Assembly: GCF_003337555.1 (NCBI RefSeq)
Contig: NZ_QPJK01000004.1
Span: 533,320-597,319 of the forward strand
Direction: 5' to 3'
DNA length: 64,000 nucleotides
Source: Pseudorhodoferax soli
GTDB lineage: Bacteria > Pseudomonadota > Gammaproteobacteria > Burkholderiales > Burkholderiaceae_C
Both the position numbers and the translations under genes were made by a program. Position 1 is the first letter of the stretch. Every line of letters starts with the position of its first letter. Below the pieces are notes generated by a model that saw nothing but the letters and a program-made list of their open reading frames with translations, was not told the DNA's origin and did not search any database. Shown one piece after another: positions 7,473 to 12,651 of the stretch.

Positions 7473-8660
7473 TCAGGCCAGCGCCGATGCCGGGCCGAAG
7501 AACTCGTAGCGCGCCTGCGCGGCCGGCACGCCCAGGGCCTGCAGGTCGCGTTGCAGCTGCGCCATGAAGGGCTTGGGGCCCAGGAAGTAGGCGTCCAGGT
7601 CGCGGTCCGCGGGCAGCCAGTCCTGCAGCCGGGCACGGTCGAGCCGGCCCGTGGCATGCGCGGTGGGGCCGGCGCCGGCCTGCTCCTCGTGGCAGTAGAA
7701 GACCTGCAGGCGCGGGTGCCGGGCAGCCTGGGCGTCCACATGGGCGCGGAAGGCGTGCACGTCGGCGTTGCGCGCGCAATGGATGAAGTGCACGGGCCGC
7801 TGGCCCGGGGCGGCCAATGCGGCGTCCAGCATGGCCAGCGTCGGCGTGATGCCGACGCCGCCGCTGATCAGCACCAGCGGCTTGTCGCCCGCGGCCAGCG
7901 TGAACGCGCCGGCCGGCGGGAAGACATCGAGCAGGTCGCCTTCCTGCACGCGGTCGTGCAGGTGGTTGGAGGCCAGGCCACCAGGTTCGCGCTTGACGCT
8001 GATGCGGTACTGCCGGCCATCGGGCGCGGCCGACAGCGAGTAGTTGCGGCGGATTTCCTGGCCGCCCACGACCAGGCGCAGCCCCAGGAACTGGCCGGGG
8101 TGGAAGTCCAGCAGCGCCCCGCCATCGGCCGGCACCAGGTGGAAGGAGGTGATTTCGGCGCTCTCGCGCTGCCTCGATGCCACGCGGAAGGCGCGCGCGC
8201 CGCGCCAGCCGCCCGGCGCCTGGGCGTTGTCGGCATAGGCTGCGGCCTCGGCGCCGATCAACAGCTTGGCCAGTTGGCCGTAGGCCGCGGCCCAGGCCTC
8301 GATCACGGCATCGGTGGCGATCTCGGCGCCCAGCACCTCGCGGATCGCCTGCAACAGGCTGTCGCCCACCATGGGGTAGTGCTCGGGCTGCACCTGCAGC
8401 GCCACATGCTTCTGCACGATCTGCTGCGCCAGCGGCCCCAGGGCTTCGAGCCGGTCGATGTTTTTGGCGTACATCAGCACGCCGTTGGCCAGCGCGCGCG
8501 GCTGGTCGCCGCTGGCCTGGTGGGCCTGGTTGAACAGGGGCCGCACCTCGAGATGGTCGCGGAACAGCAGCTGGTAGAAGTGCGTGGTCAACGCCTCGCC
8601 GCCGGTTTCCAGCAGGGGCACGGTGCTCTTGACGATGTCGCGTTGCGCAGGGGTCAGCAT
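7473..8660 (-). CDS. hmp: Flavohaemoglobin (nitric oxide dioxygenase)
   Basis: Oxidises NO to nitrate using O2 and NAD(P)H, protecting against nitrosative stress in the cytoplasm. 395 residues. The globin domain (about 1-135) has Tyr29, Gln53 and proximal His85 (KHVALQVQPEHYPMVG) at the same numbers as in E. coli Hmp. The FAD domain has RRNYSLSAAP, and the NAD domain has ISGGVGITPTLAMLD and FLGPKPFM. ATG at 8660 was chosen because it matches the family N-terminus MLTPAQ; the in-frame extension to 8693 runs into the promoter. A sigma-54 type promoter and two NorR-type sites lie upstream, facing the NorR-like regulator. Confidence 0.96.
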   Translation of the reverse strand: MLTPAQRDIVKSTVPLLETGGEALTTHFYQLLFRDHLEVRPLFNQAHQASGDQPRALANGVLMYAKNIDRLEALGPLAQQIVQKHVALQVQPEHYPMVGDSLLQAIREVLGAEIATDAVIEAWAAAYGQLAKLLIGAEAAAYADNAQAPGGWRGARAFRVASRQRESAEITSFHLVPADGGALLDFHPGQFLGLRLVVGGQEIRRNYSLSAAPDGRQYRISVKREPGGLASNHLHDRVQEGDLLDVFPPAGAFTLAAGDKPLVLISGGVGITPTLAMLDAALAAPGQRPVHFIHCARNADVHAFRAHVDAQAARHPRLQVFYCHEEQAGAGPTAHATGRLDRARLQDWLPADRDLDAYFLGPKPFMAQLQRDLQALGVPAAQARYEFFGPASALA

Positions 8661-8694
8661 GGGGGACTCGATTGGTGGATGACCCGCATGCACA

Positions 8695-8710
8695 GGCAGC
8701 GTTCGTGCCA
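8695..8710 (-). promoter_or_regulatory. Sigma-54 (-24/-12) promoter of hmp
   Basis: Read on the minus strand the sequence is TGGCACGAACGCTGCC. It has the invariant GG and GC ten bases apart and five of six bases of TGGCAC plus CTGC for TTGC. The expected transcript start lies about 24 bases before the hmp ATG. The position fits a promoter activated by the neighbouring NorR-type protein. Confidence 0.75.
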
Positions 8711-8750
8711 GGGAAAAAATCCTTGCGCTGCAACGGCTTGCCGAGCCTCA

Positions 8751-8763
8751 GGTCAAAATGACG
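8751..8763. promoter_or_regulatory. NorR-type enhancer site 1
   Basis: GGTCAAAATGACG contains GT-N7-AC, and the inner GTCA-AAA-TGAC is a perfect inverted repeat. This matches the published NorR core consensus. It lies about 41 bases upstream of the -24 element of the hmp promoter. Confidence 0.72.
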
Positions 8764-8776
8764 CAGCTTGAAAACC

Positions 8777-8789
8777 GGTCTTGATGACC
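8777..8789. promoter_or_regulatory. NorR-type enhancer site 2
   Basis: GGTCTTGATGACC is a second GT-N7-AC site, with perfect GGTC/GACC arms, centred 26 bases from site 1. It ends 11 bases before the regulator's start codon, so it could also allow autorepression. A third site, as in E. coli norVW, was not found between 8690 and 8800. Confidence 0.7.
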
Positions 8790-8800
8790 TCTTTCGGGAC

Positions 8801-10444
<1,644 letters not shown>

Positions 10445-10474: not shown

Positions 10475-12253
10475 CTACGGGCGCGCCTGCAGCCAGGCGT
10501 CGAACTCGGCCACGCCGAGCGGGCGGGCGAAGTGGTAGCCCTGGCCCTTGTCGCACTGCATGGCGGCCAGCATGCCCGCCTGTGCCTCGGTCTCGATGCC
10601 CTCGGCCACCGTGCGCAAGGCCAGGCTCTGCGCCACGCGCACGGTGGACTCGACCAGCACCCGGTGGTGCCGGCTGGTTTCCAGCTGGCTGACGAAGGAA
10701 CGGTCGATCTTCAGCACGTCGACGGGCAGCTGGTGCAGGCTGGCCAGCGACGAATAGCCGGTGCCGAAATCGTCCAGCGCCAGCGTGAGCCCCAGCCGCT
10801 TGAGGTCGCGCAGGCGCGTCTGCACCGCGGCATCCTGCGCCGCCATGCTCTCCGTCACCTCCAGCTGCAGCTGGCCGGGCCGCATGCCGGTGGCTTCGAT
10901 GATGGCGGCCACATCGTCGACGAGCGAGGGGTGCGGCAGCTGTCCGCGCGACAGGTTCACCGCCATCAGCGCCGGTGCGCGCGTGCCGTGCTGGCGCTGC
11001 CAGCGCATGAACTGCCGGCAGGCCTCGCGCAGCACGAAGGCCCCCACCTCGACGATGAGGCCGGTCTCCTCCGCGATGCCGATGAAGTCGACCGGGGACA
11101 CCAGGCCGCGCACCGGGTGCCGCCAGCGCACCAGCGCCTCGACGGCTTCGACACGGCCGTTGCGCAACGACACCACGGGCTGGTAGACCACGAACAGCTC
11201 GTCGGCATGCACGGCACGCCGCAGCTCGTTCTCGGTGGCGCTGCGCTGGCGTGCCTGCTCGCGCAGCGCGTGCGCGAACTCCATCGCACGGTTGCCGCCT
11301 GCGCGCTTGGCCGCCACCATGGCCAGCCGTGCGTGGTACAGCAGGTCGCCCACGGTCTGCGCCTGTTCTGCCGCGTAGGCGATGCCGATGCTGGCCTGGC
11401 AACGCAGCGCCTGGCCGTCCAGCGTGTACGGTTGTCCGAGCGCCAGCAGCGCCCTGGCCGCCAATGCGCGGGCCGCCTGCGCGCCGGCGCCCGGCTCGGG
11501 CTCGAAGGCCACGGCGAACTCGTCGCCGTCGATGCGCGCGACCAGTGCCCGCTGCGTCATCGCCATCTCCAGCGGCGCCGGCACGGTCTCCTGCGGTTCG
11601 GCCGGTGCCGCATCCACCAGGGCCTGCAGCCGCCCTGCCAGCTGGGCCAGCACCGCATCGCCCGCGGTCTGGCCGACCGTGTCGTTGACATGCTGGAAGC
11701 GGTCGCTGTTGATGAACAGCAGGGCCAGCGGCCGCGCCTGTCCGGCGCCCTGCTCCAGGCGGGCCGCCAGATAGGCGTGCAGCGCCTGCCGGTTGGCCAG
11801 GCCGGTCAGCCGGTCGGTCTGGGCCGCGGCATCGACGCGCCGCCGCTGGCGCCGTTCGTCCTGCGTGGCGTCGTGCACCACGGCGGTCAGCCGCGTGCCG
11901 TCGGTGCTGAACAGGCTGAGCGCCAGGATGCGCTGGCGCGCCGGGTGCGTTGCAGCCGTGGGGCCGCCGCCCTCGAAACGCAGGCCTTCGCACAGCACGC
12001 CGCGCGGGCCGACCGGGCCGGCGGCCAGTCGGCGCACCTGCGGCACCACCTCCTGCAGGACATCGAACAGGTTGCTCAGCACCGCGTGGCGGGCCAGCGG
12101 CATGAGCAGCTGTGCGGCCATGGGATTCATCATGCGGATGCGGCCATCGGCATCGGCATCGATGAGGCCCACCGGCGTCTGGTAGAGGAACTGGATCAGC
12201 GACTGGAACGCGTCGCTGTCTTCCGGCACCTCGGGCGCTGTGGAGCCCGGCAC
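10475..12253 (-). CDS. PAS-GGDEF-EAL protein; EAL probably active, GGDEF degenerate
   Basis: 592 residues from GTG 12253, which shares one base with the stop of the upstream PAS gene (TAGTG), so translation is coupled. The N-terminus (FQSLIQFLYQTPVGLIDADA, then MMNPMAAQLL) is a PAS domain. The GGDEF domain reads IDGDEF at the signature, and its metal/base-binding region is INSDRFQHVND instead of DxDxFKxxND, so cyclase activity is doubtful. The EAL domain keeps EAL in VEALVRW, NLSRGQL, DDFGTGYSSL, KIDRSFV and VAEGIE, as expected of an active c-di-GMP phosphodiesterase. It has no membrane segment. It probably takes its input from the preceding PYP-like protein. Confidence 0.9.
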   Translation of the reverse strand: MPGSTAPEVPEDSDAFQSLIQFLYQTPVGLIDADADGRIRMMNPMAAQLLMPLARHAVLSNLFDVLQEVVPQVRRLAAGPVGPRGVLCEGLRFEGGGPTAATHPARQRILALSLFSTDGTRLTAVVHDATQDERRQRRRVDAAAQTDRLTGLANRQALHAYLAARLEQGAGQARPLALLFINSDRFQHVNDTVGQTAGDAVLAQLAGRLQALVDAAPAEPQETVPAPLEMAMTQRALVARIDGDEFAVAFEPEPGAGAQAARALAARALLALGQPYTLDGQALRCQASIGIAYAAEQAQTVGDLLYHARLAMVAAKRAGGNRAMEFAHALREQARQRSATENELRRAVHADELFVVYQPVVSLRNGRVEAVEALVRWRHPVRGLVSPVDFIGIAEETGLIVEVGAFVLREACRQFMRWQRQHGTRAPALMAVNLSRGQLPHPSLVDDVAAIIEATGMRPGQLQLEVTESMAAQDAAVQTRLRDLKRLGLTLALDDFGTGYSSLASLHQLPVDVLKIDRSFVSQLETSRHHRVLVESTVRVAQSLALRTVAEGIETEAQAGMLAAMQCDKGQGYHFARPLGVAEFDAWLQARP

Positions 12254-12651
12254 TAGCGCTGCACCAGCACGTAGCGCCAGCGCAGCGCCGGATCGGCCAG
12301 CAGCCGCAGCTTGACGGGTGTCGGGCGCATGCGCAGGGTCAGCACATAGTCGATCGTGTCGTCCAGCGGGCGGCCCTGCTCCGCGGCGTCTTCGAACCGC
12401 TGCGCCACGAGAAAGTTGTTCATGCAGGGGGCGACCGACTCGAACAGGTGCTGTCCGACCACCCGCTCGGGCCGCAGCCCGGCGGATGCGGATTCCAGCT
12501 GGTTGTAGGTCTGCACGATGCAGTTGGCGTCGAAGCCGATCACGCCGAACGCCAGCCGGTCGATGTCGGTGCTTTCCAGTACCGCGGCGAGGTCCGGCGC
12601 GTCCATGGTGCAGGCGTGCCGCACAGCGGGGTGCTCTGTCGACACGCTCAT
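12253..12651 (-). CDS. Photoactive-yellow-protein-like PAS protein
   Basis: 132 residues. From LAFG to VAPC it aligns without gaps to Halorhodospira PYP: LAFG and VAPC are identical, and the residues equivalent to Tyr42 (TYN), Glu46 (QLES) and chromophore-linked Cys69 (VAPC) are all present. Thr50 is replaced by Ala and Arg52 by Leu. The end (DYVLTLRMRPTPVKLRLL) matches the last PYP strands. PYP binds p-coumarate at Cys69 and senses blue light; whether this one does is unknown, and no tyrosine ammonia-lyase gene is in the window. Its stop overlaps the start of the GGDEF-EAL gene. The start is uncertain: ATG 12651 or ATG 12606. Confidence 0.78.
   Translation of the reverse strand: MSVSTEHPAVRHACTMDAPDLAAVLESTDIDRLAFGVIGFDANCIVQTYNQLESASAGLRPERVVGQHLFESVAPCMNNFLVAQRFEDAAEQGRPLDDTIDYVLTLRMRPTPVKLRLLADPALRWRYVLVQR

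Follow-up and report, generated by a model that had tools for sequence, protein, structure and literature searches.

The partner to which the founding photoactive yellow protein (PYP) passes its signal has never been identified, and the signal route of single-domain PYPs is described as unknown by Xing, Gumerov and Zhulin (2022, PMC9664959); a second account calls the PYP signal chain an important gap (PMC12826048). What is taken here from these two papers refers to their relevant passages. Clade C of the family occurs mostly in Burkholderiales, had no characterised member at the time of publication and is often encoded beside GGDEF proteins (PMC9664959), a pairing of clade C PYPs with GGDEF/EAL genes has been described in both papers (PMC9664959, PMC12826048), and among pyp operons GGDEF was recorded in 29 and EAL in 22 (PMC12826048). 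The present work concerns a stretch of 64,000 nucleotides, referred to below as the window, from the 8.16 Mb genome of Pseudorhodoferax soli (assembly GCF_003337555.1, contig NZ_QPJK01000004.1, positions 533,320 to 597,319), in which the gene for a PYP-like protein is directly followed by that for a GGDEF-EAL enzyme carrying an N-terminal PAS-like domain, here called N-PAS. Coordinates are window positions, and the genes, codons and domains of this operon all lie on the reverse (-) strand.

The closest described systems are the clade C PYPs themselves, which resemble the window protein in their Burkholderiales hosts, the retained pocket triad, the retained Met100, the loss of Phe92, Phe96 and Trp119, and the GGDEF/EAL neighbours (PMC9664959). 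In contrast with what is reported here, the relevant passages of that account and of PMC12826048 describe no shared partner domain, and those of the former neither a shared N-terminal one nor a cyclase and phosphodiesterase pair with N-PAS. The PYP of Idiomarina loihiensis is likewise a single-domain protein, thought to act on a neighbouring cyclic di-GMP (c-di-GMP) enzyme and on biofilm (PMC9664959), but it belongs to clade A, and the weaker-scoring PYPs of our searches lack N-PAS except for one fragment in genome G199. Ppd of Thermochromatium tepidum also couples a PYP input to a GGDEF-EAL output (PMC9664959, PMC12826048), although it is one PYP-phytochrome-GGDEF-EAL fusion, whereas the window encodes two separate proteins and no phytochrome domain. 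The core association of PYP with GGDEF/EAL has already been published, and the new part is N-PAS, found only with this branch of PYPs in the genomes examined; it was not seen in the original prediction, which had been made from the sequence of the window, and it is the most interesting part of the finding.

A clade C PYP in Pseudorhodoferax soli

The PYP gene (12253..12651) runs from an ATG at 12651 to a TAG at 12255-12253 and encodes 132 amino acids. In a phmmer search against all PDB sequences, with 35 rows listed to an E-value of 1, all 33 rows with E<=0.001 were PYPs or their derivatives (FAST/nanoFAST), the best being Ppr-PYP (1mzu, E 1.1e-13), followed by forms of the H. halophila PYP. 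The phmmer alignment bears out the gap-free match to PYP through the chromophore region that had been noticed from the sequence, with one extra residue appearing later, near residue 95 of the window protein. The NCBIfam equivalog TIGR02373 (photo_yellow) gave an E-value of 1.7e-18 and 66.9 bits, below its cut-off of 143.05; since this model covers only 20% of PYP homologues (PMC9664959), the protein fails a narrow model and not the PYP family. Its AlphaFold model (mean predicted local distance difference test score, pLDDT, of 83) retrieved PYPs or derivatives as the top 40 matches of a fold search, with template modelling (TM) scores of about 0.78-0.82 for the full-length ones, and the first non-PYP PAS domain appeared at rank 41 with a TM-score of 0.55.

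Further evidence was obtained from a tree of 59 PYP rows, in which the window protein joins PYPs from Burkholderiales and a few others in a branch of 40 rows with a support of 100/98. The tree is midpoint-rooted, its bootstrap had not settled, and its rows include none from Leptospira or Salinibacter (clade B); as it holds only PYPs, it places the protein within the family rather than against other PAS domains. This branch stands apart from the H. halophila PYP, from Ppr and from clade A-like paralogues that also belong to Burkholderiales. The marks of clade C are present: Phe92, Phe96 and Trp119 are replaced by Ile, Leu and Tyr, and Met100 is kept. Sequence, fold and tree agree in grouping the protein with the PYPs and not outside their clade, and its genuine membership of the family is thereby confirmed; a decayed or non-PYP PAS domain is ruled out by the closest solved relatives and the fold, which are those of PYP, and by the retained pocket triad.

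The retention of this triad had been claimed before and holds in the alignment, where Tyr42, Glu46 and Cys69 (the chromophore-attachment cysteine) of the H. halophila PYP correspond to Tyr49 (codon 12505..12507), Glu53 (12493..12495) and Cys76 (12424..12426), all three in invariant columns; the presence of these equivalents, together with a grouping among known PYPs rather than other PAS domains, belongs to the definition of the family given in PMC9664959. Close homologues show no variation at the cysteine: it is kept in 87/87 aligned homologues (84 of the query's own branch and three clade A-like paralogues), and all three residues are invariant in 95/95 branch rows, the latter being rows of our own choice with at least three duplicates inside and with L117, L100 and the second PYP of the P. 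soli genome left out. Cys69 counts are biased for the 84 loci and 50 genomes discussed below, which were found with the window PYP by patterns covering the Cys69 region. One locus, L117 (G199:C71), holds a degenerate PYP of the branch in which, by eye, Cys69 is kept and the equivalents of Tyr42 and Glu46 are lost, with N-PAS still following.

The changes of Thr50 to Ala and of Arg52 to Leu, which had also been pointed out, are present in the alignment but are not oddities. The published family consensus is Ser47, Leu49, Ala50, Leu52 and Thr97 (PMC12826048), and the window PYP has Ser, Ser, Ala, Leu and Thr at these positions; as Ala50 and Leu52 are the consensus, the two changes are not decay, and their reading as a sign of altered chemistry was rejected. 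When a distinguishing position is defined as one residue in at least 95% of the 95 branch rows and in at most 30% of 19 rows from other branches (near-copies included among the 19), 14 positions separate this branch from other PYPs. Most of them either follow closely on Cys69 (72-82) or belong to the gateway (50, 52, 96-99), and the former may constitute a candidate surface for a partner.

The PYP was found in 5/6 Pseudorhodoferax genomes searched. The P. soli genome itself carries a second PYP of the same branch (G000:C6:265979-266332; L007, L092), 56% identical to the first. At three other loci (L051, L067, L047) a clade A-like PYP was observed no more than a few kb away from the clade C one, and at the two of these loci from Glaciimonas (L051 and L067) a frame with an aromatic ammonia-lyase motif sits between the two PYPs. 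One Burkholderiales genome has four tandem divergent PYP-like frames of two alternating types (L119, G160:C1:133878-137370), in which VAPC is replaced by VAVC or LAAC; N-PAS is missing there.

N-PAS and its linkage to clade C PYPs

N-PAS comprises residues 15-143 of P0002, the frame that contains the enzyme (11828..12214), and is proposed to be the PYP acceptor. It does not correspond to a catalogued family, as no NCBIfam, Pfam or PDB match exceeded its threshold: none of 37 members had an NCBIfam match, Pfam at E<=0.01 gave PAS for 2/37 and PAS_8 for 1/37, all at an E-value of 0.0029 or worse, the window copy scored 18.1 bits on Pfam PAS against a gathering score of 22.6, and the sole PDB match of the N-PAS profile to an E-value of 0.1 was a histidine kinase (E 0.062). 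The possibility of N-PAS being a distant copy of PYP found no support either (hhalign probability 0.2%).

A gene with N-PAS lies just downstream of PYP in 83/84 loci (80 from a contig collection, the best 80 of 117, and four others including that of the window), the sole exception being the second PYP of P. soli. Duplicate loci (L002, L004-L006, L089, L090, L092, L094-L097) were left out of this count, as well as of the 87 aligned homologues, the 50-locus identity and the cyclase counts. The commonest layout, seen in 49/84 loci, consists of PYP, then N-PAS with GGDEF, then N-PAS with GGDEF-EAL; the two N-PAS copies of one locus share 46% identity on average (50 loci), and the two cyclases that were scanned with Pfam have another PAS domain between N-PAS and GGDEF. 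GGEEF or GGDEF is present in 59/59 cyclases matching the GGDEF query and an RxxD site in 56/59, these 59 leaving out L063 (broken motif) as well as L029 and L046 (GGDEF part missing, N-PAS kept), and the EAL motif is kept in 73/73 phosphodiesterases. A GGDEF-EAL protein alone was scored in 17/84 loci, the window among them; in two loci scored in this way, L058 and L088 (G464:C1 and G475:C1), two N-PAS matches were observed in one frame of about 900 amino acids, which may represent a fusion of the phosphodiesterase with what is left of a cyclase. N-PAS also heads histidine kinases, identified by Pfam HisKA in L008 and by eye in L059, L085, L138, L139 and L141, the last three of which are Myxococcota loci; at the fourth Myxococcota locus, L140, N-PAS is broken and a GGDEF frame comes after it.

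The linkage was followed through whole genomes with an N-PAS profile and, in Burkholderiales and Myxococcota, a PYP profile built from the pattern-found rows, strong and weaker PYPs being separated at 100 bits, a line drawn after a gap between 95.5 and 125.6 bits had been seen in the Myxococcota search. Among 399 Burkholderiales genomes PYP matches were found in 12 and N-PAS in 11, a set identical to that of the genomes whose PYP exceeds 100 bits; such agreement by chance has a probability of about 1e-21, a figure which ignores shared ancestry. N-PAS accompanies 12/13 strong PYPs in this set, and 21/22 N-PAS matches follow a PYP downstream at a distance of no more than 2 kb, the 22nd being located in a 68%-complete genome on a contig with no detected PYP. 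Among 193 Myxococcota genomes, PYP matches were obtained in 41 and N-PAS in three, the only three with a PYP above 100 bits; 5/5 N-PAS pieces (two of which belong to one broken gene) are adjacent to PYP, downstream within 2 kb, and none was found in the 38 other genomes with weaker PYPs. A search of 369 genomes of the class gave N-PAS only in the genome of the window.

A further 50 genomes, chosen for having the PYP, represent 50 of the 80 loci, and up to 86 candidates were scored in each; three of them (G480, G463, G454) have the same coordinates as G318, G388 and G414 of the 399. N-PAS occurs with 55/55 strong and 0/14 weaker PYPs of this set, and 94/97 matches are again found at most 2 kb downstream of a PYP, with seven of the genomes carrying a single match. 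The other three matches were found on contigs different from that of the PYP, in genomes whose loci carry the name Noviherbaspirillum; their frames have 603-619 amino acids and were taken for phosphodiesterases by length only. On the PYP tree all rows of the 40-row branch except the second PYP of P. soli have an N-PAS neighbour, and this label requires 2 changes against 17.0 when shuffled.

The enzyme, its neighbours and the chromophore supply

The N-PAS-GGDEF-EAL protein (10475..12253; P0002 without its first residue) is a predicted c-di-GMP phosphodiesterase. Its GTG at 12253-12251 shares one base with the PYP stop in the sequence TAGTG (12251..12255), and the overlap of stop and start put forward earlier is likely, but a second in-frame GTG 24 bases later (12229-12227) is an alternative start that would leave a short gap; in Pseudorhodoferax sp. 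Leaf274 the junction reads GTGA. Pfam places EAL and GGDEF in the protein above their cut-offs. The N-terminal PAS claimed for it is PAS-like in the enzyme model but falls below the Pfam PAS cut-offs: the model (mean pLDDT 87) has a helix at residues 15-26, then a succession of strands and helices resembling that of PAS up to residue 129, and a helix at 131-145 leading to GGDEF.

The GGDEF domain (approximately residues 145-325, 11282..11824) contains DGDEF (11530-11516), in which the first Gly of the active-cyclase motif GGDEF/GGEEF is replaced; among 28 aligned enzymes of this type 18 keep a GGDEF motif. The EAL domain (residues 343-579, 10520..11230) has its catalytic residues in place. Its site had been called intact, and the positions that we take to be catalytic (E, N, E, DD, K, E, Q) are indeed kept in 28/28 aligned proteins. 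The top fold matches of the enzyme are GGDEF-EAL and PAS-GGDEF-EAL enzymes, with 5xgd and 9cmf in the top 10, and PA0861 (RbdA) and DosP, two PAS-GGDEF-EAL phosphodiesterases with solved structures, resemble it in domain order and fold; the N-PAS profile does not detect the PAS domains of either.

Adjoining the operon, at 7473-10444, a divergent flavohaemoprotein-like gene and a NorR-like regulator were recognised by eye from the sequence; BLAST of both against the other loci did not bring them out as constant neighbours of PYP.

No Photo_RC match at E<=1e-5 was found in the genome, which supports the earlier description of the host as a non-phototroph. A search for tyrosine ammonia-lyase and p-coumaroyl-CoA ligase, proposed in the original prediction, yielded neither this lyase nor a ligase closely related to the PYP-linked one in the genome. 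The sole protein matching PF00221 is a histidine ammonia-lyase, with a score that exceeds the HutH cut-off. With the PYP-linked ligase of L060 as query, 37 weak matches were obtained, the best at 55.6 bits; four were scanned, and among the matches listed only L143, the best full-length match in the genome to this ligase, hit TIGR02372, with 103 of 334.7 bits, a score that does not support it as a true p-coumarate ligase. The neighbourhood of L143 resembles, by eye, a lipid or polyene pathway. The L060 pair, the one PYP-linked lyase/ligase pair scanned, is itself below or outside the models: its ligase reaches 328.6 of 334.7 on TIGR02372 and its lyase no family cut-off. Sequence motifs point to both a lyase and a ligase beside PYP in four Methyloversatilis loci (L060, L064, L075, L077), to a lyase in two Glaciimonas loci and to a ligase in one Caballeronia locus. 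As tyrosine ammonia-lyase occurs in 5% and ligase in 32% of pyp operons (PMC12826048), missing chromophore genes are common; not every PYP requires dedicated ones, and uptake of plant p-coumarate is a possible source of the chromophore.

A proposed route from PYP to its output

The explanation which fits these results best, and which we consider reasonably probable as a whole, is that a clade C PYP signals through N-PAS to the neighbouring phosphodiesterase. The PYP would be expected to bind p-coumarate via Cys76 and to change its shape under blue light, upon which it would bind, or release, the N-PAS of the enzyme that is translated next; the helix following N-PAS (residues 131-145) would pass the change on to the EAL domain and alter the breakdown of c-di-GMP, which in this way may come under PYP control. 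In the commonest Burkholderiales layout one PYP would face a cyclase and a phosphodiesterase, both with N-PAS; the operon of the window has only the phosphodiesterase arm. In other bacteria N-PAS may receive PYP on diguanylate cyclases, on phosphodiesterases and also on histidine kinases. That it is a dedicated, portable acceptor for clade C PYPs on all of these and on hybrid kinases, giving one photoreceptor several outputs, appears slightly more probable than the contrary.

Several observations weigh against this explanation. One of six weaker Burkholderiales PYP matches, a 55-residue fragment in G199, the 68%-complete genome mentioned above, has N-PAS downstream (the others, including four tandem PYPs in the twelfth genome, do not), the second PYP of P. 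soli has no N-PAS gene beside it, and four N-PAS matches (1/22 and 3/97) do not lie beside a PYP. The second PYP might act in trans on the same phosphodiesterase. The genome counts come from 10-11 candidates scored per genome in the 399- and 369-genome sets and 22-23 in Myxococcota, and weak copies may be missed. With HutH as the only lyase and a weak ligase match, the formation of holo-PYP in this organism is uncertain. Finally, much of the pattern could also arise if the genes were simply inherited together as one operon, with no contact between the proteins.

The last point leads to the first of two alternatives that survive about equally well, and which we regard as unlikely: N-PAS could be a dimerisation domain, joining cyclase to phosphodiesterase or each to itself, with PYP acting elsewhere on them or on another target and the linkage being that of genes travelling together. 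PAS domains often dimerise, and the cyclase and phosphodiesterase of one operon both carry N-PAS, as would be expected after duplication within the operon. However, N-PAS is also present on the histidine kinases beside PYP in 3/4 Myxococcota loci, a single N-PAS match is found in 7/50 genomes, and all four of the matches away from PYP are nonetheless in genomes with a clade C PYP.

It is similarly doubtful that the PYP of the window is no photoreceptor at all and that its cysteine pocket instead senses a thiol-reactive molecule, a plant phenolic or the redox state and reports this to the phosphodiesterase. A tyrosine ammonia-lyase and a ligase closely related to the PYP-type one were both sought in the genome without success, and clade C differs from other PYPs at the gateway positions, which makes such a sensor conceivable; on the other hand, the invariance of the triad in the 95 rows extends to the four loci from Methyloversatilis where motifs of a lyase and of a ligase occur, and the majority of pyp operons in print are likewise without chromophore genes (PMC12826048). 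The reading of the enzyme as an ordinary PAS-GGDEF-EAL protein, with the small gene before it unrelated and the association due to chance, found no support and has a negligible probability, given that the N-PAS gene follows PYP in all but one of the 84 loci and co-occurs with clade C PYP across the 399 and 193 genomes.

Signalling from a clade C PYP through N-PAS therefore remains the explanation that we prefer. Among the papers listed in literature searches, no other one on N-PAS as a PYP partner was recognised by its title or the start of its abstract, with the possibility that the domain appears in supplements or subscription papers. As PYP is a model light sensor, the presence of N-PAS on several outputs, and only with one branch of PYPs, turns the question of its partner into a simple binding experiment. 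If the explanation is true, N-PAS would answer what the single-domain PYPs of this branch bind, would represent a domain identified through its occurrence with a single branch of PYPs only, and would provide a modular socket for light-controlled enzymes.

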